From: Sedimentisphaerales bacterium
Lineage (GTDB): Bacteria > Planctomycetota > Phycisphaerae > Sedimentisphaerales > Anaerobacaceae
Direction of reading: 5' to 3'
NCBI GenBank assembly: GCA_016932095.1
Contig: JAFGDN010000064.1
Coordinates: 1 to 38,404 of the forward strand
DNA: 38,404 nucleotides
In this document: piece by piece, positions 3,554-34,161 of the stretch
Numbering within the stretch: the first letter of the stretch is position 1
How the letters are laid out: the number at the start of each line of letters is the position of its first letter
The notes under the pieces: model-generated
Databases searched by the model: none
What the model saw: only the letters and a program-made list of their open reading frames with translations
Told to the model about the DNA's origin: nothing
Program-made: the position numbers and the translations under genes

Positions 3554-3933
3554 TTCACCGCGAAGGGCACGAAGGTAAATAAGGGAATCGGGCTATCAGT
3601 GAAACAGTCCCGTAAAGGACATCTTACGGTGGTTGCAGGAAATCAGATTAACAGATTATCAGGGAAGAGCATAAGATAAAAGTATATAAGTATATGCGTA
3701 TATACTTATCGAGTGCATTAACTATCAGGAATTGAGGGTGATGGGATTGATTGCGAAATCGCGGGATATCTTTTTTCTCAAAAATGGTCGTTTTTCAGGT
3801 CATAGTGACTTTGTTATGGGGTATTGGCCAGCTTAAGAAGACGGGGGATTTGGCCGATGATTTTTAGCGGAGGAACTGCTCTTTTTCCCCGGTATAGGGA
3901 CTGTTAAGGGCATATTTAAAAGCGAGGAAGAAA
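3554..3933 (+). other. Spacer with degraded repeats and a hairpin
   Basis: No gene is supported here. The stretch contains a degenerate fragment of the intergenic repeat family seen elsewhere in the window (near 3557, reading CCGCGAAGGGCACGAAGG). It also has a perfect eight-base inverted repeat AAGTATAT/ATATACTT at 3688-3707 with a four-base loop inside a TA-rich run. A good ribosome site (GAGGAAG) for the next gene sits at its end. Confidence 0.5.
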
Positions 3934-4710
3934 ATGAGTGAGTCAAACGAACAAAGTTGTGTGCCGGTGAAAGCGGTCGAAACGAAAAATCCGATGTCCA
4001 TACTTGGCAGTAATACGGCCAAAATCAGCATAATCCTGGCCGTAATTGTAATCGCGATGAATCTTGCGGCGGAGACAGTTTTGCAGGAGCAGCCGGCGGC
4101 GAAAACAGCCGCGGCACTGGCTGCGAGGGCGGCGGTCCTGGTAGGCGTGTCGGCGGCGCTGGCAGGATTGATATGGGCGTTTTTCGGGCGGGGAAAGGAC
4201 GCAATGATACTGGCCGGGGCGGGCTTGCTTTTGAACGCTGGTCTGTTTGTAACAGGTTTCGGCGGGCCGACTGTGCGAGGCAGGCACGTCGCCGAGGTGC
4301 AGGACATTTCCGCGGGACGGCCCACAGTGCAAACCATATCGTCAAAATCTGGCCGAACGATTGAGACAAGGGACTGGACGGCGGGATTTGTGACGGAGCT
4401 GACCGACTATAATTTCGACGAAGTTGTCGAGGACTCGCGTATGCCGGTCCTGGTTGATTTTTATGCGACGTGGTGCAGGCCCTGCCGGAAACAGTCGCCG
4501 ATTATCGAGCAGGTCGCGCAGGATTACGAGGGAAAAGCCAGGGTCTGCAAGCTCGACGTAGATGTCGGGGTCAAATCAGCGGACAGGTTCAACGTGAGCA
4601 GCATACCGACAATCATCCTGTTTGACAGAGGTAAAGTAAAAAAGAGGTGGAGGGGCACGACCGACAGGGCAGCCATTTGCCTGGCAATGAACAAGCTGCT
4701 GGAAGAGTAA
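3934..4710 (+). CDS. Membrane-anchored thioredoxin-domain protein
   Basis: A 258-residue protein with three predicted membrane segments (about residues 30-50, 66-84 and 90-110) and a C-terminal thioredoxin domain (about 155-258). The domain has the redox motif W180-C-R-P-C184 and the cis-proline loop SSIPTIILF. The classical motif is WCGPC. Arginine in the third position is common in thioredoxin-like proteins that act on particular partners. The likely role is thiol-disulfide exchange at the membrane; the side faced is not certain from sequence. The ATG follows a strong GAGGAAG site. The gene is isolated between repeat-rich spacers. The thioredoxin call is firm, but partner and direction of electron flow are unknown. 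Confidence 0.85.
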   Translation: MSESNEQSCVPVKAVETKNPMSILGSNTAKISIILAVIVIAMNLAAETVLQEQPAAKTAAALAARAAVLVGVSAALAGLIWAFFGRGKDAMILAGAGLLLNAGLFVTGFGGPTVRGRHVAEVQDISAGRPTVQTISSKSGRTIETRDWTAGFVTELTDYNFDEVVEDSRMPVLVDFYATWCRPCRKQSPIIEQVAQDYEGKARVCKLDVDVGVKSADRFNVSSIPTIILFDRGKVKKRWRGTTDRAAICLAMNKLLEE

Positions 4711-4716
4711 CTTAAT

Positions 4717-4866
4717 AGCCACAGAGGATAAAAATTATTTGTAGCCACAGAGCACGCGGAGGACGCAGAGAATTGATACTCGATGCTCGATACTTGATAC
4801 TCGTAACTACAACGGACGATGCGTATCTCGTATTTCGTATATCGTAGTTCGTATTTCGTAGTTTGG
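4717..4866 (+). repeat. Intergenic short-repeat cluster
   Basis: Two copies of AGCCACAGAG (4718 and 4743) are followed by degenerate tandem units of the type GATACTCGATGCTCGATAC (about 4775-4804) and CGTATTTCGTA (about 4819-4862). Pieces of the same AGCCACAGAG family occur inverted at 86-115 and inside leuS at 18673. No coding function is seen; ORFs across this tract are repeat translations. Confidence 0.65.
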
Positions 4867-5031
4867 ATTCCGCAGGGAGGCGGGTCTTTAATAATAAATA
4901 TGACGCTAAAAAAAATGGTGATTTTTAGTGGGCTTGGGATTAACAAGGAGTTCAGGTGCGTTTCGACAAATATATTGATTTTTCAATGTCAGCCGATACA
5001 ATGGCGATTAAAAGACAAGGATGTATTTTTA

Positions 5032-5247
5032 ATGCGTGCTATGCTGAGCGAATCCGTAATAGAAACACAAAAAGCAAGACCATTCTTGAAATGGGCAGGT
5101 GGTAAAACACAATTGCTCGATGAGATAGATATTCGCCTGCCTATTAAAGAAATCGAATCAGGTCAAATCGACAGTTATATCGAACCATTCGTCGGCGGAG
5201 GCGCTTTATTCTTTCACGTTGCTCGGAAATACCAGCAAATGTATTAA
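5032..5247 (+). pseudogene. Truncated Dam-type DNA adenine methylase (N-terminal fragment)
   Basis: Encodes about 71 residues that match the start of Dam-family N6-adenine methylases. RPFLKWAGGKTQLLDEI is the N-terminal AdoMet-contact motif, and YIEPFVGGGALFFHV is the FxGxG region of motif I. The frame then stops after KYQQMY. The catalytic DPPY motif and the rest of a normal protein of about 270 residues are absent downstream in all frames I could follow. It is therefore a remnant and should not methylate DNA. The ATG at 5032 follows AAGGA at a distance of ten bases. A PLD-type nuclease with a DpnI-like C-terminus lies just downstream, which suggests this was the methylase of that restriction system. 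Confidence 0.8.
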
Positions 5248-5289
5248 AAAATTCTTCCGCAGCATTTGACTCCATTACCTGTTTGATCA

Positions 5290-5318
5290 ATAATGTCGTA
5301 TATGTCAAACGACATTAT
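5290..5318. promoter_or_regulatory. Inverted repeat ahead of small ORF
   Basis: A perfect nine-base inverted repeat, ATAATGTCG at 5290-5298 and CGACATTAT at 5310-5318, separated by eleven bases. It overlaps the start region of the small ORF at 5293. It could be an operator for a restriction-locus regulator or an RNA hairpin that hides the start codon. No regulator gene is visible nearby. Confidence 0.35.
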
Positions 5319-5499
5319 GAAATATGATGAAAACCCCGAATTCTTGGGATTTATTACCAGAGAGTTCGACAGGACTGCTACCGGTGCAACCACAGAAGAA
5401 CTGGCAGAGTTTGCATTTGGAAGTCTGAACAAAGCTATTGCGGCTTACAAACTATGGAGGAAAAATGAGTTATCAAATCATAACCAACCCGACAACTGA
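5293..5499 (+). CDS. Small hypothetical protein in restriction locus
   Basis: A possible 68-residue protein, with in-frame ATGs at 5293, 5302 and 5317. I recognise no family. The sequence is acidic in its first half and has a helical stretch (TTEELAEFAFGSLNKAIAAY). It overlaps the start of the nuclease gene by 35 bases, which would allow translational coupling. It follows directly on the break point of the truncated methylase, so it may instead be the tail of a larger lost gene. Confidence that it is expressed as drawn is low. Confidence 0.35.
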   Translation: MSYMSNDIMKYDENPEFLGFITREFDRTATGATTEELAEFAFGSLNKAIAAYKLWRKNELSNHNQPDN

Positions 5500-6286
5500 G
5501 GTTTTTCTCGAGCAGGTCAGAAATTCGCATGAGCAATTGTTCACCTGTCCATTCATCAAAGCCAACATCGCCAAACTCATATTGGATAATATCTCTACCA
5601 AATCCAAGACGTCACTTTTAACAAGTTACAAACTCACAAATTTTTACAGAGGCTCTTCTGATTTAACCGCCCTCAAATCATTTATCCAAAAGCAAGTACC
5701 TGTCCGTAATCTTCCCGGATTGCACGCCAAGACATATATCTTCGATTCCGACCGCGCTATTATCACCTCCGCAAACTTGACTCTTGGTGGTTTGCAAAAT
5801 AACTACGAGTGCGGCGTTCTTATCGAAGATGACAAGACAGTCAGCAAACTCAAGTCAAATTTCTTGGCTATCTTTAAAGACAGGGAGAGGGTATCAATTG
5901 TCACTGAAGAAATTATTTCCGTAACGGAAGGAATTCTCGCAAAAGTCCCCAAAGAGAAAAAGGTAAAGTTTGAGAAATCAGAAAAAGAATTATTCCCTCA
6001 AAAGATTTATGAGCCGGAGGACGACCTCTACGATGCTGGAGTAGAAACAATAACTAACACATTGTCTGGTTGGCGGCTCGATGTCTTTAACACCGTTGCT
6101 AAAATTCCGCTCAATATCTTCAAACTCGATAGTGTGTATGCCTTCAAAAAACGACTCCATGAATTGCACCCAGAAAATCTGAACGTTGAGGCTAAAATCC
6201 GCCAACAGCTTCAAGAACTGAGAGACTTGGGGCTGGTTGAGTTTATGGGCAAGGGCGCTTACCGCAAACTTTGGAAAAACCTTTAA
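5465..6286 (+). CDS. PLD-family restriction endonuclease-like protein with DpnI-type winged helix
   Basis: A 273-residue protein in two parts. Residues about 1-135 resemble phospholipase D-type nucleases: a single HxKx4D motif (H87, K89, D94, in LHAKTYIFDSD) followed by SANLT. A single HKD motif is usual in nucleases that dimerise to form the active site, such as BfiI-like and NgoFVII-like restriction enzymes. The last 65 or so residues (KIRQQLQELRDLGLVEFMG and flanks) resemble the winged helix at the C-terminus of DpnI and Dam-replacing proteins, which reads the target DNA. The ATG at 5465 has GGAGG four bases upstream. With its methylase partner truncated, the enzyme is either orphaned, inactive, or targets modified DNA. 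Function is inferred. Confidence 0.75.
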   Translation: MSYQIITNPTTEVFLEQVRNSHEQLFTCPFIKANIAKLILDNISTKSKTSLLTSYKLTNFYRGSSDLTALKSFIQKQVPVRNLPGLHAKTYIFDSDRAIITSANLTLGGLQNNYECGVLIEDDKTVSKLKSNFLAIFKDRERVSIVTEEIISVTEGILAKVPKEKKVKFEKSEKELFPQKIYEPEDDLYDAGVETITNTLSGWRLDVFNTVAKIPLNIFKLDSVYAFKKRLHELHPENLNVEAKIRQQLQELRDLGLVEFMGKGAYRKLWKNL

Positions 6287-6311
6287 GCCGTAGCGTAATA
6301 GGGAGTCGATT

Positions 6312-6653
6312 ATGGACAGCTCAAAATCGTATTTTATCCAACAGGCCAATAAGTATGATGTCCTTTTCGTCAGAGAGAGAAATCCGAAAGAAGACCTTAC
6401 TGGGTGGGGGGCTTTACAGTTTGTGCTTAACAACGGAGAGATTTTCGTAATTAGTGGTTATCAGTTCGGGCAAGGACCGGGAGAGGAAGGTTTGTGGGTG
6501 GAAGTACATGGCCTGAACAAAGAAGCTTTTGAGGAGCTAAAAAAGAAGTTGCCTCCACGAAAAACAATTAAAGATATAGACATCGAGAAATCCCAGCTTG
6601 AAGATTATTTGTCCCACCATATAGACGAAGATTTACTCGATAATATGATATAA
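6312..6653 (+). CDS. Hypothetical protein, 113 residues
   Basis: Starts 26 bases after the PLD nuclease with a GGGAG ribosome site, so it is probably co-transcribed. I do not recognise the family. The protein is soluble and mixed alpha/beta, with an N-terminal half containing VLFVRERNPKEDLTGWGA and an acidic, helical C-terminal tail. There is no signal peptide, metal site or membrane segment. Its place directly behind a restriction-type nuclease raises the possibility that it assists or restrains that enzyme, but nothing in its own sequence shows this. Confidence 0.6.
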   Translation: MDSSKSYFIQQANKYDVLFVRERNPKEDLTGWGALQFVLNNGEIFVISGYQFGQGPGEEGLWVEVHGLNKEAFEELKKKLPPRKTIKDIDIEKSQLEDYLSHHIDEDLLDNMI

Positions 6654-6654
6654 T

Positions 6655-6798
6655 TGCACCTGCACCGCACGTTGGCGAGCCAAAGCCCTGCAAGACAAGT
6701 TTTATTTGATTATGCATGAACACTTATTTGTCTTTCGCAAGCCAAGAACTGGTGAAGATATCAATCGAATAAAAGACAGTGCGATAGGCAGATATTGA
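6655..6798 (+). pseudogene. C-terminal remnant of a DNA methylase
   Basis: The frame ending at 6798 reads DKFYLIMHEHLFVFRKP followed by a short polar tail. A final HEhLFVFRKP-type strand is characteristic of the C-terminus of many N6/N4 DNA methyltransferases, where it follows a line of text about returning to the target strand. Only about 40 residues can be traced, with no start codon and no catalytic motif. I read it as the last piece of a deleted methylase gene, consistent with the neighbouring broken restriction locus. Confidence 0.45.
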
Positions 6799-7129
6799 CT
6801 ATTGAGAGGTATTTAAAAATGGTTTTTAACGGGATATTGACGGCGATAATGAGCTGATGGGTTTGGATATCGACCAAATAATTGTGTAAAGGAAATAATA
6901 AAGCGAACCTTGCTGATGCAACCCCGGCCGCCCCCAACTACGGCATTCGAGGGCAGGGGGGCCGTTGCTAAATACATCGCAAAGCGATTAAAAGGTGGAA
7001 TAAGTCGGACGATTCGGACCAGTAGGACAGGTCGGAAGACAGAAAACCGAATATGGCGAACAAATGTCGAAGTAAAATAAGTCCCCGGAAGAAAACTCCC
7101 TGCCGAATAGTTAAAACAATTAACTGTCC
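6799..7129 (+). other. Spacer with a degraded EF-hand/dockerin-like gene tail
   Basis: No intact gene. Bases 6833-6889 read DIDGDNELMGLDIDQIIV then stop, and the following bases up to about 6925 continue the similarity. Nearly the same DNA recurs at 15305-15395. After it come a GC-rich stretch and GCTAAATAC (from 6967), which is also found after the second copy (from 15412). The rest is unremarkable spacer before the convergent DUF2809 gene. Confidence 0.5.
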
Positions 7130-7543
7130 TTAGTTTTCTTTTGTGTCTTTTACTCGGCAGGATAACAGTTTCAAAAACAGGATAGACAGGGCGCAGCCGA
7201 TGAAGTAATAGGGAAACTGCTTCCAGATGAAACAAGTGCCGAAAAGGGCGGCGCCGAGGAGATTGGAGCGGATACTCTGGAGAAAAGGCGGCTTCCAGAT
7301 TTGAAGAAATTCGAGAATGCACGTCACAATGAGGACAATGACGGGAATCCTGACGACATTTGTTCGGCTGGGCCAAATCAAAAAGAAGACAAAACACCAA
7401 AACATCACGTAAAAGACATCCGGCAGGTAAAATCTCACCCAGTTTTGCGCGGTTCCGCGATAATAGCGCCACAGCAGAAATCCCGACGAGGCGGTAATCA
7501 ATATACCAATCAAAAGTATGATGCGCTGCTTTATCAGATTCAT
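7130..7543 (-). CDS. DUF2809-type small integral membrane protein
   Basis: A 137-residue hydrophobic protein with four or five membrane helices (around residues 8-26, 40-60, 66-84, 95-106 and 112-130). Length, helix pattern and the LEFLQIWKPPFLQSIRSNLLG loop (between helices three and four) fit the DUF2809 family. No biochemical role is known for that family. Start at the ATG at 7543. It stands alone between a repeat-bearing spacer and the HNH gene. An overlapping 219-residue frame on the same strand is its out-of-frame shadow. Confidence 0.75.
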   Translation of the reverse strand: MNLIKQRIILLIGILITASSGFLLWRYYRGTAQNWVRFYLPDVFYVMFWCFVFFLIWPSRTNVVRIPVIVLIVTCILEFLQIWKPPFLQSIRSNLLGAALFGTCFIWKQFPYYFIGCALSILFLKLLSCRVKDTKEN

Positions 7544-10219: not shown

Positions 10220-12079
10220 TTAATCCTGCTGGAGATAGCTTTGGGCGGCGAGGGCGAAATCGAACAGGTTGACGATGCCGTCGCTGCGGCCGGCAGGAGC
10301 GATGTCGGCGAGGCCCGCCCCTGTGCCGAGCCACTGCCCGGTGAATTCAACGAGGTCGTCGAAATCGACGACGCCGTCGCCTCCCCGGGGGGCGACGTCG
10401 CATTTTACGTTCCAGTTTTTGGAGGCGGCGACGCTTTTCCAGGCGTTAGCAAAAAGGACCCAGTCGGCAAAATCGACTATACCGTTTCCCCTTACGCTGA
10501 AGATATCCGCCTTGTTATAGCCCCTGGCAAGCCAGTTTTCCGCGAGGGTTGACAAATCATAAAGGTTTATCGAGCCGTCGGGCGAGAGGTCGCAAAGGTA
10601 ATTATAAGCCGGCCAGCCCGTTTTTGTGCGCCAGGAGGAGGCAATTATGCTTAAATCCCTGAAATTTACGATGTTATCTCCGAGGCCGCCGACAAGGTCC
10701 AAAGAGGAAGTTCTTGCCAGCCATTGCTCAGCTAAAATTGCGATGTCGATGATATCCACGCCCTCGGGGCATTCGAAGTCGCCCGGCAGCCAGTCCTGCC
10801 AGGCAAGCCGCGGGAAACCAGCGCCGTCGCAAATATCCCACAGGTCAAGGTTTCCGTTTTGGCTTTCACCGACAAAATCCCATCCGGCGGTGATATAGGT
10901 ATCCAGCATTTTCATTTCAATGAGGTTCGAATCATTTTCAGGCCAAAATGAGGCCGAAACCTCGCCCTGGTCAGCCCAGCCGATAAACTGCTGCGTTTCG
11001 TAAACGCCGGCGTCAATTTGACATACGGTGTAACTCTTTGAGACAACGCCGGTGTCGTAAAGGAGTCCGGCCAATCCGCCTACATAATCGCCGCCCATGA
11101 TATGACTTCGGGCGTAACTATCCCGGACCAGCCCGGCATTTCTCCCGACGAGACCGCCGACTTCATTTTTTCCTTCGACAGAACCCTTCGCGAAGCAGCA
11201 TTTCACGGAGCCCCGCAAAGTTCCGACTAAGCCGGCAACTTTATCTTCATCGGCTTTAACATCTCCAGTTACGCCGCACAACATTATTTCACTGTCGCTT
11301 TCGCCGGCGATACCGCCGACGTCATCGAAGCCATAGACCATTCCGTCGAAACTGCACTTAGAGATTTCGACGCCGCAGTGGTAACCCGTAACGCCTCCTA
11401 CGTTAATATATCCGTTTACAGATGCCGTTACGCTGCAGTCGCGAATTCTTCCACTGGCGTTGTATCCGGCAATGCCGCCGACGCAGTCGCCGCCGCTGAT
11501 GAGTGCCTGCTCGACCGTGCAATTGATAATAGTTCCCGTTTTCAACCTGCCGGCGATAGCGCCGACATACATAGCGTCGCCGGCGTCGATTACGGGATTG
11601 ACAAGAGTTACGTTTTTGATACACGCGGCTGGGCCTTGTATAAATCCGAAAAGCCCGACAAAGTCACGTCCGCCGGTTTTTATACTGAGGTTGCTGATTC
11701 TTTTTTTGTTGCCGTCAAACACGCCTTTGAAAGGTTTTGAAGTGTACGGCTCCCATCTCATATAACCGATGATTGCAAAGGCCTCGCGGCCGGGCCGGCC
11801 GTTGAAATCCTTCATATCGACATCGGCCATAAGCTTAAAGCTTTTATCCCAGTCGTCGGGGAAGCTGCCTATACGGGATAACTGGAGAGGGGTGAAAATC
11901 AAAAACGGGTCATTTTCTGAGCCGTTTCCGCCGCCATAATTTGCGAAAACGTCGTATGAAAGAAAAGTCAACACAGCCATAACCGCCCAAAGAATACGGC
12001 GCAGGTTTGTATTTTTGTAACAAACCCGTTCTCGCCGATAACGGCTTACAAAGCCGTCGCAGCGGTTATGGCTCATCAT
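10220..12079 (-). CDS. Secreted GLUG-repeat protein with dockerin-like repeats
   Basis: A 619-residue exported protein. The start at 12079 (ATG, with GGAGG upstream) is preferred over the longer frame to 12202. A basic N-terminus and hydrophobic core (RRILWAVMAVLTFLSYDVFA) form the signal peptide. Then come many GLUG motifs (patterns like VGGLVGRNAG, VGGIAGESDS), which build a right-handed beta-helix, about residues 50-390. The C-terminal 200 residues hold five or so dockerin-like units of the form DGxVxxxDLxxLAxxWL, each a calcium-binding half-site. Such units are frequent in planctomycetes that lack cellulosomes, where they are thought to act in surface attachment. Substrate is unknown. Confidence 0.85.
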   Translation of the reverse strand: MMSHNRCDGFVSRYRRERVCYKNTNLRRILWAVMAVLTFLSYDVFANYGGGNGSENDPFLIFTPLQLSRIGSFPDDWDKSFKLMADVDMKDFNGRPGREAFAIIGYMRWEPYTSKPFKGVFDGNKKRISNLSIKTGGRDFVGLFGFIQGPAACIKNVTLVNPVIDAGDAMYVGAIAGRLKTGTIINCTVEQALISGGDCVGGIAGYNASGRIRDCSVTASVNGYINVGGVTGYHCGVEISKCSFDGMVYGFDDVGGIAGESDSEIMLCGVTGDVKADEDKVAGLVGTLRGSVKCCFAKGSVEGKNEVGGLVGRNAGLVRDSYARSHIMGGDYVGGLAGLLYDTGVVSKSYTVCQIDAGVYETQQFIGWADQGEVSASFWPENDSNLIEMKMLDTYITAGWDFVGESQNGNLDLWDICDGAGFPRLAWQDWLPGDFECPEGVDIIDIAILAEQWLARTSSLDLVGGLGDNIVNFRDLSIIASSWRTKTGWPAYNYLCDLSPDGSINLYDLSTLAENWLARGYNKADIFSVRGNGIVDFADWVLFANAWKSVAASKNWNVKCDVAPRGGDGVVDFDDLVEFTGQWLGTGAGLADIAPAGRSDGIVNLFDFALAAQSYLQQD

Positions 12080-12696
12080 CTCACCCTCCAGAATATCAAA
12101 ACAACTAGTTCCTCCTTTTAACGAGTCAATAGTAAAGTATAGTAAACGTTTTCGCTGAGGCACAATAGTCCTATAATATACAGTCGCGGAAGTTATTATC
12201 AAGCAAAATTGCCCATTTTGCCAAAATGCAAAAGCACAACGTAAAAGGGAACCACGGATTGAGAAGCAGCGGACAGCGTGTAGCGGACAGCGTTCAGTGA
12301 AAAGCGTTCAGTGAAAAGCGAACAGGGGATAGTTAAGAAATCCTAAATCCTAAACCCTAAATCCGAAACAAATTCAAATCACCAAGACTCGAAATTCAAA
12401 ACAAACCACGGATTTGGAAGTAATGCAAAAAGTAAAAATGCGGTATCCTGAAGGGATAGAGTTTTAAGTTTAAAGCGTTAAGTCCAAAACAAAAACTGAT
12501 AATCAAAAGCTTTATCCGCCGAAGGCGGATAACAATAATAAGATTGACGCGGGCAAAGGGTTTTATACAATTATAATCAAGAATTTCTGTTGGCCGTAAT
12601 ACTATGAAGGATAAAATGGCGGGATGAAAAATGGTTTTGATTGTCTGGTTTTTGTGAAGCAGGATATTTCTGTAAGCTTGGAGGTGCCAAGTTAAG
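12080..12696 (+). other. Long spacer with tandem short repeats
   Basis: About 600 bases without a supported gene. It holds degenerate tandem units: GCGGACAGCG at 12269 and 12283, GCGTTCAGTGAAAA twice in direct succession at 12291-12318, and CCTAAATCCTAAACCCTAAATCC (12342-12364, with its ends flanked by similar words). A possible stem GCCGAAGGC appears at about 12519-12527. The 128-residue frame on the minus strand here is repeat translation and not a gene. The promoter of the downstream island is probably in the final 100 bases. Confidence 0.5.
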
Positions 12697-25462: not shown

Positions 25463-25531
25463 AATAATAAACAAGAATGCGGCAGGTTTTGAGGCCTGCC
25501 CGAAAATGAAGGCCAATTACGGGTGAACATT

Positions 25532-26548
25532 ATGGAAGACAGCTCAATTATACAGGATTTTCTCAACTATCTGCAGTTCGAGAAGCGGTTCAGTCCTCAC
25601 ACGGCAAAATGTTATGGTGTTGACCTGATTCAGTTCGGCGAGTTCATGTCGGGCTCAAGCCAGGAAACGCACGGCGAGCCGGATGTTATCGGTTCTCACG
25701 ATTCGGGAACGGCAACAGCCACGGCCGTTGAAGCCCATCCGAAAGTTGATGTTGACCGGCTTCTTTCAGATACGGACGTCAACGCTATAAGAAGCTATAT
25801 GGCCGGCTTGAATGAAAAGCAATACTCAAAGGCCACCATCGCAAGAAAGCTGGCTACGCTTCGAAGCTTCTTTAAGTTCCTCGTCAAGCGAAATCGAATC
25901 GCCTCAAACCCGGTCGTAGGCATACGAACGCCAAAGCAGGAAAAACGGCTGCCCAAGTTCCTCGAATACGAAGAGGTCAAGCGTCTGCTCGAAACGCCTC
26001 CAGCCGACTCCTGGCTCGGGGCGCGCGACAGGGCAATTATGGAAACGCTATACTCAACCGGTATGAGGGTTAGCGAGCTTGTGGCGCTAAACCTCGACGA
26101 TATGGACTTTTTAGGCGAGGTCGTTCACATCAGGGGTAAGGGCAAGAAAGAGAGAATTTGCCCAATCAGCTCGTCGGTGCTTCAAATAATACAGCACTAT
26201 ATGGAGTTCAGAAACAAACGCGCCCAGAGCAACGGCAACTTCGACGGCAAGGTGCTTTTCGTCAATAAGCATGGCAAACGCCTCAGCACGCGCAGCGTCC
26301 GGAGGAAAATGGACAAATACCTCAAAATGGCCGGCCTCGACCCGAATATCAGCCCGCACACTCTTCGACACAGCTTCGCCACACATATGCTAAACAGGGG
26401 CGCCGACCTCCGCAGCGTTCAGGAATTGTTAGGGCATCAGTCGCTTTCCACCACACAGATATACACACACCTGACGACCAAGAAGCTCAAGGACGTTTAC
26501 TCCGCCGCTCACCCCCGCGAAAACGACCAGCAGGATGCAGATGTTTAA
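25532..26548 (+). CDS. Xer-type tyrosine recombinase
   Basis: A 338-residue integrase-family recombinase. Catalytic residues are visible: R in STGMRVSELV, K in IRGKGKKERI, HTLRH, and the H and nucleophile Y in LLGHQSLSTTQIYTH. The layout matches XerC/XerD, which resolve chromosome dimers at dif sites. The N-terminal SAM-like domain carries a long polar insertion after residue 35 (about 40 residues, with SSQETHGEPD and GTATATAVEA), which most Xer proteins lack. ATG at 25532 is preferred to the GTG at 25523. No phage or transposon genes adjoin it, which favours a housekeeping role. Confidence 0.9.
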   Translation: MEDSSIIQDFLNYLQFEKRFSPHTAKCYGVDLIQFGEFMSGSSQETHGEPDVIGSHDSGTATATAVEAHPKVDVDRLLSDTDVNAIRSYMAGLNEKQYSKATIARKLATLRSFFKFLVKRNRIASNPVVGIRTPKQEKRLPKFLEYEEVKRLLETPPADSWLGARDRAIMETLYSTGMRVSELVALNLDDMDFLGEVVHIRGKGKKERICPISSSVLQIIQHYMEFRNKRAQSNGNFDGKVLFVNKHGKRLSTRSVRRKMDKYLKMAGLDPNISPHTLRHSFATHMLNRGADLRSVQELLGHQSLSTTQIYTHLTTKKLKDVYSAAHPRENDQQDADV

Positions 26549-26622: not shown

Positions 26623-27210
26623 TTAGCGTTTTTTTCTTATTGCAATAAAACAACCGAGAGCAAAAAGAGTAAGGCTCGCCGGTTCAGGAATATAGACACC
26701 TAAAGTGTAATTACCAACGTCAGGAAGAACGCTTAGAGAGCCGCCAAGTCCGGAGACGAGGTTCTCGCCGTTGCCGTTTGTAGCAATCGGAGACGATATA
26801 GAGAAGTATATCCAACGAGGCGTCGAATCCGAAGATGTTATTTCAAAGGACTCGACGATGCCCGAGCCGGGGCTGAACTCAGAGCCAGCGGGGCTATGAA
26901 CGGTATTGAAACGAATGTTATCGAAAGAACCAGAAGAGCCGTCGGCCGGAGAGCTGCTGTCAAATAATCCATCGTTTGCCGTCCAGCCATAGTCACTATA
27001 CTCCCTCGTAAGATTCAGCGATTCGCTAAACACAAGGTCATACGTCAAAGAACCGAGGCCGAAATCCGTATTAGTCCTGTGAACCTCGACTGTTGAAGAC
27101 CCGCTATCAAATTCCATCCAAAGGTCAAGATGCGGCACAGCATTTACCTGCTGTGTAAAAACGGCGCATAAGACAACACACGTCATTACAAATATTCTGC
27201 CTCGTTTCAT
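26623..27210 (-). CDS. PEP-CTERM-sorted secreted protein
   Basis: A 195-residue exported protein. The start is the ATG at 27210 with AGGAG six bases upstream. A signal peptide (MTCVVLCAVFTQQVNA near residues 8-24) precedes a beta-rich mature part (LDLWMEFDSGSSTVEVHR, then SSPADGSSGSFDNI). The C-terminus reads IPEPASLTLFALGCFIAIRKKR: the PEP motif, a membrane helix and a basic end, the sorting signal cut by exosortase EpsH/XrtA systems that link to exopolysaccharide. Exosortase is not in this window. Confidence 0.85.
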   Translation of the reverse strand: MKRGRIFVMTCVVLCAVFTQQVNAVPHLDLWMEFDSGSSTVEVHRTNTDFGLGSLTYDLVFSESLNLTREYSDYGWTANDGLFDSSSPADGSSGSFDNIRFNTVHSPAGSEFSPGSGIVESFEITSSDSTPRWIYFSISSPIATNGNGENLVSGLGGSLSVLPDVGNYTLGVYIPEPASLTLFALGCFIAIRKKR

Positions 27211-27587
27211 CACTATCTCCTTGCATTAAAGAATATATTCGAATCTGCACGATTTCAGAACGCGCAAATTACCGTTTTCAAGGAACGTTTTTGTACGTGC
27301 GCATAACTGCCAAAAACAGAAAATACGCGCAAATAAAAACACATAGTGAGTTTTCGCCTGCCCCAAACTACTCATCTTCCATCCCAACTTCGAAAATGAG
27401 TATATCACATCTTTATATTTGTGTCAAGAAATTTTTTCAGATATTTGGCGATTAAGGCGAAAAACCGCTGTAAGGCCCTGAAAAAGCCATATTTAGCGGT
27501 ATAGAGGCATAAAAAAACCGGCCAATATCATTTTAAAAGGGCTGGTTTTATGAAAATTTTTCGGATTCCCATTCAACCGTGATTGCG
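27211..27587. other. Spacer with terminator of the metacaspase gene
   Basis: No gene. On the minus strand an imperfect stem AAAACCAGCCC...GGCCGGTTTT followed by a T-run (about 27511-27551) terminates the large metacaspase gene. The remainder, A/T-rich, likely holds the promoter of the PEP-CTERM gene; I cannot fix its boxes. Confidence 0.55.
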
Positions 27588-30500
27588 TTATGGGCAAGAT
27601 GGGGCTTTATTTCCAGTTAACACATACAAACGGGCAGCCAGAAGGTCTCCCGGTGTAATAGCCCCGTCACAGTTGATATCGAACCTGGCATTGCTGCTAT
27701 CTACAGGCGGATTGACAAGAACCGGCCCCCTGATGAAAAGCAGGTCTCCGGCAATAACACTGCGGTCACCGTTTGCGTCGCCTTTCAAAGCTGTGATACA
27801 TATCGAGGATTCATCAATGGGCACGCCCGATGCTGATTTGACGTTGCTGGTGATGGTTATGGCATATGTGTCTTCGTCCGGCAGCGGCTCGTCCAGAGAA
27901 ATGACCAGACAGTTGTCGTCCCACCACTCAGTCCAGCCGGAAACCGATTGAGCGCCGCCGTTAACGCCCTCGATGGAAATGATGTCGCTGAATTCGGTTA
28001 TCGAAGTGTCCATTTCCATATCGAAGCAGACGTATAATTCCTTGACGCCATAATTTCGCGGTTCGACGTAGCCGCTGGTTATTTCGCACCAGATATCGCC
28101 GACGCTGCTGTGTATTGCGCCTATCTGCCAGCTTACGACCTGAGGCGGGATTCCTTCCCAGGCAAAACGTGGGTAGTGCTTAGGCGTCAGATACCATATA
28201 TCCTCAGTTCCGTTTGCGGTTTCATTTATGAAATCCCACCATGCGTCGATAAACGTGCTCAGCGTTTGCATCTGGGCCGTTGTTTTACCCGTTCCGCCCG
28301 CGCTTCCGGAAAGAGCGCTGACATCCGTATCCCAAAACGAAGCTGAAACGGCACTATCGGTGCTGTTCCCTATCAGGCCGCCTCTGCTGCCAAACCCATT
28401 CACTTCGGATGCAGCATAGCATTTATAGACGGGATTTTCATATATGTCGCCTATCAGCCCGCCGGTGCGATTAGTTCCTGATACTGCGCCAACGGCATAA
28501 GAGTCCTGGACCGAGCCCCATCCGGCAGAGCCGATTAGACCGCCTACGTCCGCGGCGCCTGATATTATACAATTAGCGTAGCATTGGTTAACGTCGCCAC
28601 CAGTTCCTTGGCCGAACAAACCGCCACATTTGTTGTTGCCGCTGATTTCGCAGGAAGCGGAACATCTCGACATAGCTCCCCACCAACTGCCAGCTAAACC
28701 GCCCGTATAATCGCCACCCGAGATTTGGCCTGTGACATGACAATCGAATGCAGAACCTTCGATTCTTGCGCCAATCAAACCGCCAGCCCGACCTGACATG
28801 CTGACGCTGACATCGGTTGCATAACAGTTTGAAAGAATACCCCTTTCAAAAGAGGCAACAAGCGTTCCGCCATGGTCGCCGCTGACAACGGGCGAGATAA
28901 GACCGACATTTTTGATTTCCGCTTGTATGTCCGGTTGACCGGGAAGCGGTTCCTCTCGACCGGCGACGCCGAAGATTCCTACAGGGCCGGCGTCCTGTGA
29001 CTGGTAAGTAAAATTATGAATTTTGTAGCCATCCCCATCAAAGACGCCAAGGAACGGAGTGATATTTGTGCCAATAATGTTAAATGAATTGCCTGTAAAG
29101 CCGCCGAGGTCTATATCGGCAACAAGTTTGAAATGCTTGTTCCAGTCGTTGGCGTCAAGGCCAATCCTGTTCATCTGCTCGGCGGTGCAGATAAGATAGG
29201 TGTCTTCGGCTGTGCCGGTGCCGCCGCAGTATGAATATTTGCCCGTATAGTTTTGGTTCGTTTGATTTGTCGTTACGTTTGTATAGAGCTTGCTTGAGGG
29301 CGTAAATACCCACTCGGCCTTGCTGGGCGTAACGGTTACGCTCCAAGGCGACATCGCTGTAAGCTCGTAGAAGCCGGCTGAATCGGTTGTATCGTTTTGG
29401 CCCGTGCTTGCCGAGACGTAAACGTCTTCAATTGGCGTTCCGGAAGCATTTCTTACATAGCCGGATATGGTTACCGGTACCTGTGGAGCAGTTAAATTTA
29501 TCGTATAATCCTCGGCCTCGCTCCACTGAAAATAGCCGCAGGGATTTGGACTGACGTTCCATATTACACGAATACGCATACGAGTATTACCGGTGAGAGC
29601 TCCTGCCGGTGGGATTATAGTAGCCGAATAAAGCCCCGATGCGGGAGTGCCGCTTACCGTAATGGTCTCGGATGCGTCGTCGAAATCCTTGTCCTGGTTC
29701 CAGTCAACCCATATCCCAAGCTGGTCCTCCGGATACGGACTGCCTGTGTTTATGCTTATCGGATATGAATTGCCGACCTGCATATTCGTGCTGAGCGACG
29801 TGTAATCGGTATAGCCGTTTGTGCCGCAGGATGTGCCTGTATTATTGATGGAGCCGACCTGGACATCTCTGACGTGCTCGAAGCCGCAGGTGCCCGTCGG
29901 CGAGCAATATTCCGGTTCGGTTTCCTGGCCTAAAAAGTCAAGCTCGCCCGTATAGGCATCGTAAATCTGCGCGTGCTGGCCGGAGTAATATGTCAATGCA
30001 CAGGGACCTGTATAAATGTAACATTCTTCCGCTGAAATCCGACCGTCCGAATCGCTATCCGCTGGGCCGCCCATCCCCTTCACAAGGCAATATGTAAAAA
30101 TGCCGTTTTCCAGTAACGAGCTTTCCTGCGATGTTTCGTCATCGTCGCAGGCGGTAATAACCACGCCTCTGCCGTTGTCATCGAGGTCTTTAATGCCTAT
30201 TTGGGGCACTAAATCGGCGGCGAAGCCGTCGCCCTTTTGGGGCACGATACTCCCAAATCCCTTGACAGTCCCGGCACCCTTGATTTGCCCGCCGGAATGG
30301 CAGGCGTCAAGCAAGATGACGTATTTGTTCGTCGGTAAGGCGTCAAACCAAGAGCCAAGCTCGTCATCGCTGATGTATTGATTAACGTGAGTATCGGAGT
30401 CATAGACCGCCAAAAGCTCGTCATAACCGTCGGTTTCATCGTAAGGGGGCTGGTCGTTGACGGTTGTGCCGTGTCCCGAGAAGAAAAACAGGCATAAGTC

Positions 30501-31967
30501 ATCGCTATCGGATGCGGAGGCCATATTTTGGATGGCTGTCCGAATCGCGGCCTTTGTCGCGGCGGAGTTGGTCAGCAGGGTTATATTTGCGCTGCTCCAG
30601 TTGCCTGCCGCCAGTAACGCGTTACGAACGTCTATAGCGTCGTCGTCACACCAGGTCAGGTCGCCGATATATTGGTAGTCAGCAATTCCGCATACTACCG
30701 CGCGACAAGTGGTTATTCCGTCAGGCGGCTGCGTTTCATCGGGGGTAACTGTAAGCTGGTAATTACCCGTGGCGCCGTTCACGCCTGAAACGCGAATTAG
30801 ATACTGATGGCCGGCGTTGAGTGCAACCTCAATCTCGGATTGAGAACTGCCCGCGCCGCAGGCGCTGGAATTATCATTGCAGGCCAACTCGTCTACCCAA
30901 CACTCGTTAAATACAGCAAGGGTTGTGTCAAAGGAGCTGCCGCACAAACTAACAGTGTATTGGCCGGTAGTTGCGGGAGTAAAGGAATGCCAAACGTCGG
31001 CCGTATCGTTTTGACCGCAGCTGGTTACATCTGTTCCGGTAGCGCAAAGGGAACTGCCGGCATACGGAATACCGGCGCTTACAGCTATGGCGTTACCACA
31101 ATCGTCATGCACAGGCGGTGTGCATCCGCCCGTTTCGTAATAGACCCTTATCCACCAGTTATCGATATAACCCTCATCTTCATACGCAGTATCATATGCC
31201 CAGAGGCGCCATGACTGATTAACAGGCCTGCCGTTGCAAACGCTTAATCCGGTAAACGTTCTAGTGAAGTAGCTACTATCGTATTCATTTTCAAATAAAT
31301 GTATCTCGCAACCATTAACAAGGTCTTCGTCGGTGAGGTCAATAACGAGGTCCGAAGGGTAGGTGTGATAAATCTCAAAATGAACATCTATTGAAATGAC
31401 AGTTGAACCGGCCGGGGCACAGGAAATCGGAATTTCACTATAGACCCAGCCATAAGGATAATCGGGGATATAAACCATATTATTGTTTTGGCCGGCGCAG
31501 CTACCTGTTGCCTTGGGGGTGACGGTATCAGGGTCTGTTTTGAGATTAGTTTTTGTACCTTCGACCAGAACGAAATTTCTCAGTTTTCGCACGTTTGCGC
31601 CTTTATTTATAAGCATTTCGACCTGCTCGGCGGGCAGTTGCAGGATTACTCGTCGTGGTTTACCGAGCACTCTGGGCTTGCTTTCAGGCGCATAAGGAAG
31701 GCCGGTCAGGTATTCGAGGGTAAATTGCTTACCAATGAGGACCTCGACTTCGAGAAAAGAGGTTCCTCCCGGTTGAGACGCGTCTATGGCCGGCTTTGAA
31801 GGAATGACACTCTGAGAAAGATGAGCCGGTTTTTTAACTAATTTCTGTGGAACAGCTTCGAGAGAGGTTTTTGCCTTGCAGTAAGCAAACGTGTCAAATA
31901 AGACCAGAAAATAAATAACCAGAACGAACAAACGGACAACACTGGAAAGAAAATTACGCGAACACAT
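27588..31967 (-). CDS. Secreted multidomain metacaspase (caspase C14) with GLUG and dockerin domains
   Basis: A 1459-residue exported protein. The ATG at 31967 has AGGAGG seven bases upstream. The modules are: signal peptide; an N-terminal prodomain; a proprotein-convertase P-like beta-sandwich (about 155-285); a PPC-like domain (about 287-415); and a caspase-like peptidase (about 417-640) with the catalytic histidine in FFFSGHG (near 496) and cysteine in LLDACHSGG (near 555). After these come a GEVED domain (LGIWVDWNQDKDFDD), a carboxypeptidase-regulatory-like beta-sandwich (ISGYVRNASGTPIEDVYVS), many GLUG repeats (about 940-1235), a bacterial Ig-like region and a dockerin end. Both catalytic residues are present, so it should be an active arginine- or lysine-specific peptidase. 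Substrate and role are unknown. Confidence 0.88.
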   Translation of the reverse strand: MCSRNFLSSVVRLFVLVIYFLVLFDTFAYCKAKTSLEAVPQKLVKKPAHLSQSVIPSKPAIDASQPGGTSFLEVEVLIGKQFTLEYLTGLPYAPESKPRVLGKPRRVILQLPAEQVEMLINKGANVRKLRNFVLVEGTKTNLKTDPDTVTPKATGSCAGQNNNMVYIPDYPYGWVYSEIPISCAPAGSTVISIDVHFEIYHTYPSDLVIDLTDEDLVNGCEIHLFENEYDSSYFTRTFTGLSVCNGRPVNQSWRLWAYDTAYEDEGYIDNWWIRVYYETGGCTPPVHDDCGNAIAVSAGIPYAGSSLCATGTDVTSCGQNDTADVWHSFTPATTGQYTVSLCGSSFDTTLAVFNECWVDELACNDNSSACGAGSSQSEIEVALNAGHQYLIRVSGVNGATGNYQLTVTPDETQPPDGITTCRAVVCGIADYQYIGDLTWCDDDAIDVRNALLAAGNWSSANITLLTNSAATKAAIRTAIQNMASASDSDDLCLFFFSGHGTTVNDQPPYDETDGYDELLAVYDSDTHVNQYISDDELGSWFDALPTNKYVILLDACHSGGQIKGAGTVKGFGSIVPQKGDGFAADLVPQIGIKDLDDNGRGVVITACDDDETSQESSLLENGIFTYCLVKGMGGPADSDSDGRISAEECYIYTGPCALTYYSGQHAQIYDAYTGELDFLGQETEPEYCSPTGTCGFEHVRDVQVGSINNTGTSCGTNGYTDYTSLSTNMQVGNSYPISINTGSPYPEDQLGIWVDWNQDKDFDDASETITVSGTPASGLYSATIIPPAGALTGNTRMRIRVIWNVSPNPCGYFQWSEAEDYTINLTAPQVPVTISGYVRNASGTPIEDVYVSASTGQNDTTDSAGFYELTAMSPWSVTVTPSKAEWVFTPSSKLYTNVTTNQTNQNYTGKYSYCGGTGTAEDTYLICTAEQMNRIGLDANDWNKHFKLVADIDLGGFTGNSFNIIGTNITPFLGVFDGDGYKIHNFTYQSQDAGPVGIFGVAGREEPLPGQPDIQAEIKNVGLISPVVSGDHGGTLVASFERGILSNCYATDVSVSMSGRAGGLIGARIEGSAFDCHVTGQISGGDYTGGLAGSWWGAMSRCSASCEISGNNKCGGLFGQGTGGDVNQCYANCIISGAADVGGLIGSAGWGSVQDSYAVGAVSGTNRTGGLIGDIYENPVYKCYAASEVNGFGSRGGLIGNSTDSAVSASFWDTDVSALSGSAGGTGKTTAQMQTLSTFIDAWWDFINETANGTEDIWYLTPKHYPRFAWEGIPPQVVSWQIGAIHSSVGDIWCEITSGYVEPRNYGVKELYVCFDMEMDTSITEFSDIISIEGVNGGAQSVSGWTEWWDDNCLVISLDEPLPDEDTYAITITSNVKSASGVPIDESSICITALKGDANGDRSVIAGDLLFIRGPVLVNPPVDSSNARFDINCDGAITPGDLLAARLYVLTGNKAPSCP

Positions 31968-32196: not shown

Positions 32197-34161
32197 TCAA
32201 GCGGTTTGGATGTTTGTGTTATTGTTGTTTCCGATGTATTCGGGGACAAGCTCTTTGATTTTAGCGGCTATCGCATTATGCCCGCCCGTTTTGGCGAGTT
32301 CCAAAAGCTGAACGATTCCTCGTCGGAGGGTGTCGCGGTCCATCTGGATATTTTTCCATATACCGATTTTGGGATGCCTGGTTTCCTGTAATCCCTCTCC
32401 TTTTATCGACAGCTCCTCGAAGAGCTTCTCACCGGGCCTGAGTCCTGTAAAGGTAATTTCGATATCCTCACCGGCCCGAAAGCCGCTCAGCGTTATCAAT
32501 TCCCTCGCCAAATCGACGATTTTCACGGGTTCCCCCATATCGAGCAGGAAAATCTCGCCGCCTTTACCCATAGAGGCCGCCTGCAAAACGAGCAGACTGG
32601 CCTCCGGTATGGTCATAAAATAGCGTTTCATATCCGGGTGCGTAACCGTTACGGGGCCGCCGTTGGCGATTTGCTTTTTGAAAATCGGCACGACCGACCC
32701 TTCCGAGCCGAGAACGTTACCGAACCGTACGGTAACAAAATGCGTTCTGCTTGTCTTGTTCAAATCCTGGACGTACATCTCGGCGATTCTCTTTGATGAA
32801 CCCATTATGCTGGTAGGGTTTACCGCCTTGTCTGTGCTTATCATAACGAAGCTGCCGCAGCCGAATTTGTCCGCGGCGTCGGCCACCGTTTTACTGCCCA
32901 CGACGTTGTTTTTAATCGCCTCGCCCGGGTTCAATTCCATCAGCGGCACGTGCTTGTGCGCCGCTGCGTGAATCACTGTATCGGGCCTGTGCTCGTTAAA
33001 AATACTCTCCACCCTTGGCTGGTCGGTTATATCGCATATAACAGCTTTCAAAGCTACGTCGGGGAATCTCTCACTCAATTCGCGTTCGATATAAAACAGA
33101 GGGTTTTCCGCCTGCTCGGCAAGTAAAAGCATCTTCGGCCTGAAGTAACAAATCTGCCTGCACATCTCCGAGCCGATTGAGCCGCCGGCGCCGGTAACCA
33201 GAATGGTCTTATCCTTGAGAAAATTCTCAATCGAATCGGTATCGAGCTGCACGGCCTCTCTGCCCAAAAGGTCGTTAATATCGATGTCGCGTATCTGCGA
33301 AACGCGAAACCTGCCCGAGGCGATGTCGGTCATCGAGGGCACGGTCCGGAATCGGACCTTTGTTCCTTCGCAAACCTGTATCACGCGTCTCCTTTGCGGC
33401 ACTGTCGCCGAGGGCATAGCTATGGCGACCTCCTCGATATTTTTTTCTTTGCAAATCTCCGGCAACTGCTCGACTGTCCCCAGGACCGGCAGGCCGTGTA
33501 TATTTATTCCCTGTTTGGCCTGGTCGTCGTCTATGAAGCCAATCACCTCGTATTCGGTTACCTTCATTCGGTGAATTTCCCGCAAAAGCGCCTCGCCGGT
33601 ATTGCCCGCCCCGACAATTAAAAACCGCTTGAGCTTGCCGGCCTCAACAGTGTGGAATTCCTCGTGATAAAGCCGGATTACCATACGAAGCGCAGCCAAC
33701 AGGAAGATAGTCCCGAACAAATCCGCCATAAAGACGCCCTGACCGACCTCCAATATGGCTGTCGGCATCAATCGCCGGGCAGCTTCAATCTGCAGAGCCG
33801 AAAACCACAGGATTACGATTATCGCCGTGCTTATCATTGAGCTGCGAATTATTCCCGTCAGGTCCGATATCCCAACGTATCTCCACCAGCCGCTATATTG
33901 CTTGAAAAGTCCGAAAACAGCAAATTTAACGACCACGAAAAACAGCAACAGCAGGGGGAACTGCTCCTTGAGCCATTCAGGCCGGAATTGCATATTTGAC
34001 GTGACTAAAAACGACAGAAGCAGCGACGACGCGAAGACGAAAATATGCGCGCATATTATCAGGGGCTTACGGTACCTCAAAAGCCGGCTTGACGGAGATT
34101 GGAAGGTTGGTGCGTTCGAGTCCTTGTTTTTTATATGCCTTTCGGTATTTGTTTCAGCCAT
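32197..34161 (-). CDS. FlaA1/CapD-type UDP-sugar dehydratase/epimerase (membrane)
   Basis: A 654-residue polysaccharide synthesis protein. The N-terminus has four membrane helices (about 28-165). A first Rossmann domain follows (LIVGAGNTGEALLREI), then the main SDR domain with the cofactor motif TGAGGSIGSEMCRQI, HAAAHKHVPLMELNPGEAI and STDKAVNPTSIMGSSKR. These match FlaA1, WbpM, PglF and CapD, which convert UDP-GlcNAc by 4,6-dehydration or epimerisation for O-antigen, capsule or protein glycosylation. In the SDR domain the usual catalytic tyrosine is replaced by methionine, as in that group (MGSSKR). Start at the ATG at 34161 has a weak ribosome site. Confidence 0.92.
   Translation of the reverse strand: MAETNTERHIKNKDSNAPTFQSPSSRLLRYRKPLIICAHIFVFASSLLLSFLVTSNMQFRPEWLKEQFPLLLLFFVVVKFAVFGLFKQYSGWWRYVGISDLTGIIRSSMISTAIIVILWFSALQIEAARRLMPTAILEVGQGVFMADLFGTIFLLAALRMVIRLYHEEFHTVEAGKLKRFLIVGAGNTGEALLREIHRMKVTEYEVIGFIDDDQAKQGINIHGLPVLGTVEQLPEICKEKNIEEVAIAMPSATVPQRRRVIQVCEGTKVRFRTVPSMTDIASGRFRVSQIRDIDINDLLGREAVQLDTDSIENFLKDKTILVTGAGGSIGSEMCRQICYFRPKMLLLAEQAENPLFYIERELSERFPDVALKAVICDITDQPRVESIFNEHRPDTVIHAAAHKHVPLMELNPGEAIKNNVVGSKTVADAADKFGCGSFVMISTDKAVNPTSIMGSSKRIAEMYVQDLNKTSRTHFVTVRFGNVLGSEGSVVPIFKKQIANGGPVTVTHPDMKRYFMTIPEASLLVLQAASMGKGGEIFLLDMGEPVKIVDLARELITLSGFRAGEDIEITFTGLRPGEKLFEELSIKGEGLQETRHPKIGIWKNIQMDRDTLRRGIVQLLELAKTGGHNAIAAKIKELVPEYIGNNNNTNIQTA

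Follow-up and report, generated by a model that had tools for sequence, protein, structure and literature searches.

A putative exported metacaspase set into a modular secreted scaffold in a Sedimentisphaerales bacterium

Described metacaspases and the window protein

Discussion of bacterial caspase homologues usually treats them as proteins of the cell interior with links to cell death or photosynthesis. A survey from 2012 placed 30 prokaryotic metacaspases in the extracellular space and interpreted 46 N-terminal helices as possible signal peptides (Asplund-Samuelsson, PMC3501461). In TbMCA2, which is specific for Arg/Lys, the putative S1 pocket comprises Cys92, Asp95, Ser156, and Asp211, while Asp173, Asp189, Asp190, and Asp220 make up the calcium site (PMC4357240). 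Presence of a p10 part is the criterion that separates metacaspases from p20-only orthocaspases (PMC5756287, PMC6426788). Beyond this family, the secreted clan CD peptidases clostripain (C11) and gingipain (C25) likewise combine export, a caspase-type fold, and Arg/Lys specificity (PMC4357240).

The protein studied here (hereafter the window protein) is encoded on the reverse strand of a window of 38,404 nucleotides, which is the whole stretch of DNA that was analysed (Table 1). With AtMCA4 (6w8s), TbMCA2 (4af8), and Yca1 (4f6o) of C14B as well as bacterial GSU0716 (3bij), it shares the predicted p20 and p10 fold, the His/Cys dyad, the Cys/Asp/Ser/Asp set of S1 residues, and the DD calcium pair, but differs from all of them by a signal peptide, a modular extracellular shell, a Lys in place of the fourth calcium-site Asp, and an EF-hand-like loop in p10. 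Clostripain and gingipain belong to different peptidase families, and the window protein has no sequence match to them. The exported prokaryotic metacaspases and orthocaspases (PMC3501461), including relatives from Planctomycetota and Spirochaetes, also carry a C14 domain behind a signal peptide; the Spirochaetes relatives (L040, 134-1063; L041, 6445-7323) are single-domain caspases with lipoprotein-like N-termini. However, among the relatives examined, the order of P-like, GBD, C14, GEVED, GLUG, and dockerin modules occurs in the window protein only, so that the first-pass annotation was right to call it unusual, and a literature search found no description of this architecture.

Table 1. Positions of the features of the window protein gene (in the window unless a locus is named)
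Feature	Positions	Strand	Basis
Whole coding sequence, 1459 aa, ATG start at 31967	27588..31967	(-)	Single uninterrupted frame
Sec-type signal peptide, aa 1-33, cleavage site approximate	31869..31967	(-)	Sequence features only
N-terminal leader module, then P-like domain (Pfam P_proprotein, aa 193-274 from ATG)	31146..31868	(-)	Pfam and relatives
PPC/galactose-binding-like domain, aa 301-405 (Pfam GBD_T9SS_assoc; PPC weak)	30753..31067	(-)	Pfam
Caspase (C14) domain, p20 and p10-like part, aa 422-678	29934..30704	(-)	Pfam, structure model
WCDDD: Cys440 and Asp443, equivalents of TbMCA2 S1-pocket Cys92 and Asp95	30639..30653	(-)	Alignment
SGHG: catalytic His499; Ser497, S1-pocket equivalent	30468..30479	(-)	Alignment
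SDDEL: Asp534 and Asp535, equivalents of TbMCA2 calcium-site Asp189/190	30357..30371	(-)	Alignment
DACHSGG: catalytic Cys556; Asp554, S1-pocket equivalent	30288..30308	(-)	Alignment
EF-hand-like loop DSDSDGRISAEE within the p10-like part	30024..30059	(-)	Pfam scan, alignment
GEVED domain, aa 750-824	29496..29720	(-)	Pfam
Carboxypeptidase-regulatory-like domain, aa 833-884, below Pfam cut-off	29316..29471	(-)	Pfam
Six GLUG-like repeats, about aa 1042-1200, ends approximate	28368..28844	(-)	Pattern and own-genome alignment
Big_5 Ig-like domain, aa 1310-1382, below Pfam cut-off	27822..28040	(-)	Pfam
Type I dockerin, two calcium-loop motifs, aa 1395-1443	27639..27785	(-)	Pfam, motif
Caspase domains of giant relatives with Cys replaced	L022 3614-4417; L023 4467-5264; L024 10661-11458; L025 9848-10648; L026 9993-10781; L027 7256-8110		

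The start codon is preceded by a GGAGG ribosome-binding site (aaaggagg; upstream sequence aaaggaggtttgctg), the same-strand upstream neighbour ends at 32197, and the gene appears to be a stand-alone unit. The neighbouring genes that were scanned encode a polysaccharide biosynthesis protein, an integrase, and a small exported protein. The last of these lies just downstream (26623-27213, reverse strand, with its own start at 27213) and ends in a PEP-CTERM-like tail (IPEPASLTLFALGCFIAIRKKR), and the gene of the phage integrase family (25523-26548, forward strand) is found about 1 kb past the end of the caspase gene.

The coordinates given in the first-pass annotation hold. Module by module, the chain also bears out its list, which had comprised P-like, PPC-like, GEVED, GLUG, and dockerin modules together with a signal peptide and both catalytic motifs in one chain. 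The signal peptide, called from sequence features, has the n-region MCSRNFLSSVVR and the h-region LFVLVIYFLVLF. The Peptidase_C14 match places the protein in C14 (1.1e-17; 64.9 bits against a cut-off of 21.4), and GEVED (5.5e-20), P_proprotein (24.8 bits, cut-off 21), and Dockerin_1 (26.2 bits, cut-off 22.9) are equally real; a DNA pattern search for further dockerin loops found none and left the Pfam dockerin count unchanged. The PPC label is weak, given that the PPC model itself reaches only an E of 0.1 over this stretch while GBD_T9SS_assoc scores 27.5 against a cut-off of 27. No match of the Pfam GLUG model reached an E of 1, and the GLUG assignment comes from six GGL.G repeats spaced by 26-27 aa (aa 1062-1196, found with a simple pattern) and from alignment with ORFs elsewhere in this genome that bear GLUG modules (35-41%). 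An ORF of the window (10220-12202, reverse strand) also resembles this region (37%). CarboxypepD_reg and Big_5 are sub-cut-off Pfam matches that the earlier list lacked.

Predicted fold and active-site residues of the caspase domain

Given an alignment of 18 rows as input, AlphaFold (AF2) modelled the caspase part with a pTM of 0.82 (on the single sequence, pLDDT was 37). This model, over its residues 2-269, superimposes on Arabidopsis metacaspase-4 (AtMCA4) with a Z of 24.5 and an rmsd of 2.6 across 226 residues (VIA-align). Beyond residue 185 of the model, strands and helices continue to match AtMCA4 up to residue 424 of the latter, which corresponds to a p10 part C-terminal to p20. The p10 assignment rests on the model because a sequence-only search for this part gave no significant match, and by the p10 criterion the modelled domain is closer to metacaspases than to orthocaspases, which have p20 only.

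The domain is apparently active-site-complete, as judged by alignment to solved metacaspases: besides the dyad of His499 in SGHG and Cys556 in DACHSGG, all 4 residues of the putative TbMCA2 S1 pocket are kept (Cys440, Asp443, Ser497, and Asp554). Of the calcium site, Asp189 and Asp190 have their counterparts in Asp534 and Asp535. Asp173 of TbMCA2 falls in an acidic loop of the window protein (aligned by region, not by residue), and the position of TbMCA2 Asp220, seven residues after the catalytic Cys, is occupied by Lys563; the nearest relatives of the window protein have Lys or Asn there, and AtMCA4 and Yca1 have Asp. Because the DD pair is kept while the fourth calcium Asp is Lys563 and an EF-hand-like loop lies in p10, calcium control likely differs from that of eukaryotic metacaspases. 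This loop is not special to the window protein, since many other C14 relatives of the phylum have it as well.

Relatives of the caspase domain and of its scaffold

Among 161 genomes from the order, 16 contain a match at 1e-10; three further congeneric species have none. The C14 matches in viral contigs were all distant, at 21-33% identity, and those in plasmids did not exceed about 30%. The own genome contains a paralogue that is 63% identical in the caspase domain and has the dyad, a signal peptide, and a different shell; its gene (L036, 8954-11242, reverse strand) is adjoined by two ORFs, one for an AAA-type ATPase (6225-7184) and the other subtilase-like (3714-6218). In the tree, the window protein and this paralogue group with Zipacnadia/WS1 proteins (support 97/86), then with L021 from another family of the same order, where the caspase is joined to GLUG repeats (98/95), and then with six very large proteins (97/89) that form a supported sister clade of their own (99/88). 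The window protein, the paralogue, the Zipacnadia/WS1 proteins, and L021 all have signal-peptide-like N-termini.

The first-pass annotation had named loss of the catalytic pair in all homologues as evidence against its reading. No such general loss is seen: His and Cys are both present in the paralogue, L021, and the Zipacnadia/WS1 proteins L037-L039, but the pair is lost in the sister clade. The window protein and its paralogue keep all four S1-pocket residues. Specificity is not uniform within the clade, because in L037, L038, and L039 AAC or CAC replaces DAC, which removes the S1 Asp that adjoins the Cys. The modules of L037 are PPC, caspase, PKD, and FlgD_ig.

In the six giants, which are open frames of up to 6922 aa from order-level relatives, the catalytic Cys is replaced by Gly, Ser, or Asp without exception (6/6) and the His is kept in 4/6. 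Since this sister clade has lost the catalytic Cys, a caspase domain can serve without catalysis in the lineage. A subtilisin-like domain adjoins the caspase in at least three of these proteins; Pfam finds subtilase, C14, and beta-helix in L022 as well as C14, beta-helix, and a weak dockerin in L023. Subtilase-like sequence can also be seen beside the caspase in L106 and L107. Signal peptides are visible in both giants with a retrievable N-terminus, the other N-termini being cut by contig ends.

Export as such turned out to be far from exceptional. Signal-peptide-like starts were scored for 45 of 58 C14 relatives with a readable N-terminus, compared with 42 of 175 control ORFs (24%); the rule is home-made and tries several starts, which inflates both counts, so that the difference between them is the informative part, and the loci scored are the best-scoring relatives rather than a random sample. 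These relatives speak against export as an exceptional trait of caspases, and together with the extracellular proteins inferred in 2012 (PMC3501461) they leave the earlier view that an exported caspase would be unusual unsupported. Exported caspases thus appear to be common in the phylum, and the window protein would therefore be a new combination of known parts, not a new class.

Of 159 genomes from the order, 20 encode the N-terminal stretch of 260 residues, and ten proteins bearing it that were scanned included six with a trypsin-like domain and three with GEVED. Six exported proteases from this order (L094, L096, L097, L101, L102, and L104) have the front of leader, P-like domain, and GBD in common with the window protein at 35-45% identity, but their catalytic domain is trypsin-like where the window protein has a caspase. 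The C-terminal part of the window protein matches 33 other places in its genome, most of which lie within other large ORFs, and GEVED and GLUG modules recur across that genome. Because the N-terminal front and the C-terminal modules are shared with other proteins, we view the caspase as set into a locally common exported scaffold. The proposal that this architecture marks a distinct exported class is not supported, given that its modules are shared with other exported proteins and the real clade is defined by the caspase domain.

Proposed role and alternative explanations

We consider the window protein to be probably a metacaspase with Arg/Lys specificity that is exported and sits in a scaffold shared with other secreted proteases. 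The signal peptide would carry it across the inner membrane, and outside the cell the caspase domain is predicted to fold as p20 plus p10. The His499/Cys556 dyad would then cut after Arg or Lys, a specificity suggested by homology because all 4 putative TbMCA2 S1-pocket residues are present. The leader, P-like, and GBD front and the GEVED, GLUG, and dockerin tail look like general-purpose exported modules of the lineage that may keep the enzyme attached to the cell surface or to an extracellular polymer. The gene may have arisen by placement of a caspase domain in a scaffold that carries trypsin-like proteases in relatives, where the shared modules support the joining but not the direction of the swap. 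The most likely task of the enzyme would be to process or turn over proteins on the surface or outside the cell, as opposed to a part in cell death.

The Cys-less giants suggest another reading, namely an adhesive or structural surface protein whose caspase domain serves mainly for binding and cleaves little or nothing. Non-catalytic modules do form the bulk of the chain, and the replacement of Cys in a whole well-supported sister clade sets a precedent, but retention of both His and Cys in the window protein, its paralogue, L021, and the Zipacnadia/WS1 proteins, together with an intact S1 pocket in the first two, makes this unlikely. We give still less weight to an enzyme of a cellulosome-like complex anchored by its dockerin to a cohesin on a scaffoldin. 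The first-pass annotation had envisaged a partner bound through the dockerin end, and the dockerin does score above its Pfam cut-off with two calcium-loop motifs and is one of a type with nine matches in the genome; however, the Pfam cohesin model (PF00963) found no match in this 96% complete genome, and of 80 genomes from the family only 3 gave a cohesin match. The source organism may still have a cohesin that is diverged or missing from the assembly. The least probable reading in our eyes is an exported caspase that acts in the death of the producer or its neighbours (fratricide), as suggested for extracellular prokaryotic metacaspases in 2012 (PMC3501461), since neither the chain nor the neighbouring genes scanned contain a toxin, immunity, or death-associated module.

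We tentatively suggest a wider picture that is possible rather than probable: bacteria of the order and Zipacnadia/WS1 might share a lineage of exported caspase domains that moves freely from one secreted-protease scaffold to another. The branch of the window protein would have stayed catalytic, and in the other the caspase would have become a Cys-less module that follows a subtilisin-like protease in chains several thousand residues long, acting as a substrate-binding or regulatory partner.

What emerges is a supported caspase lineage that would be exported and treated as an interchangeable protease head on secreted scaffolds, with a sister lineage that has lost the catalytic Cys. This system may offer a simple way to ask what prokaryotic metacaspases do outside the cell and by which route a caspase becomes a pseudoenzyme.
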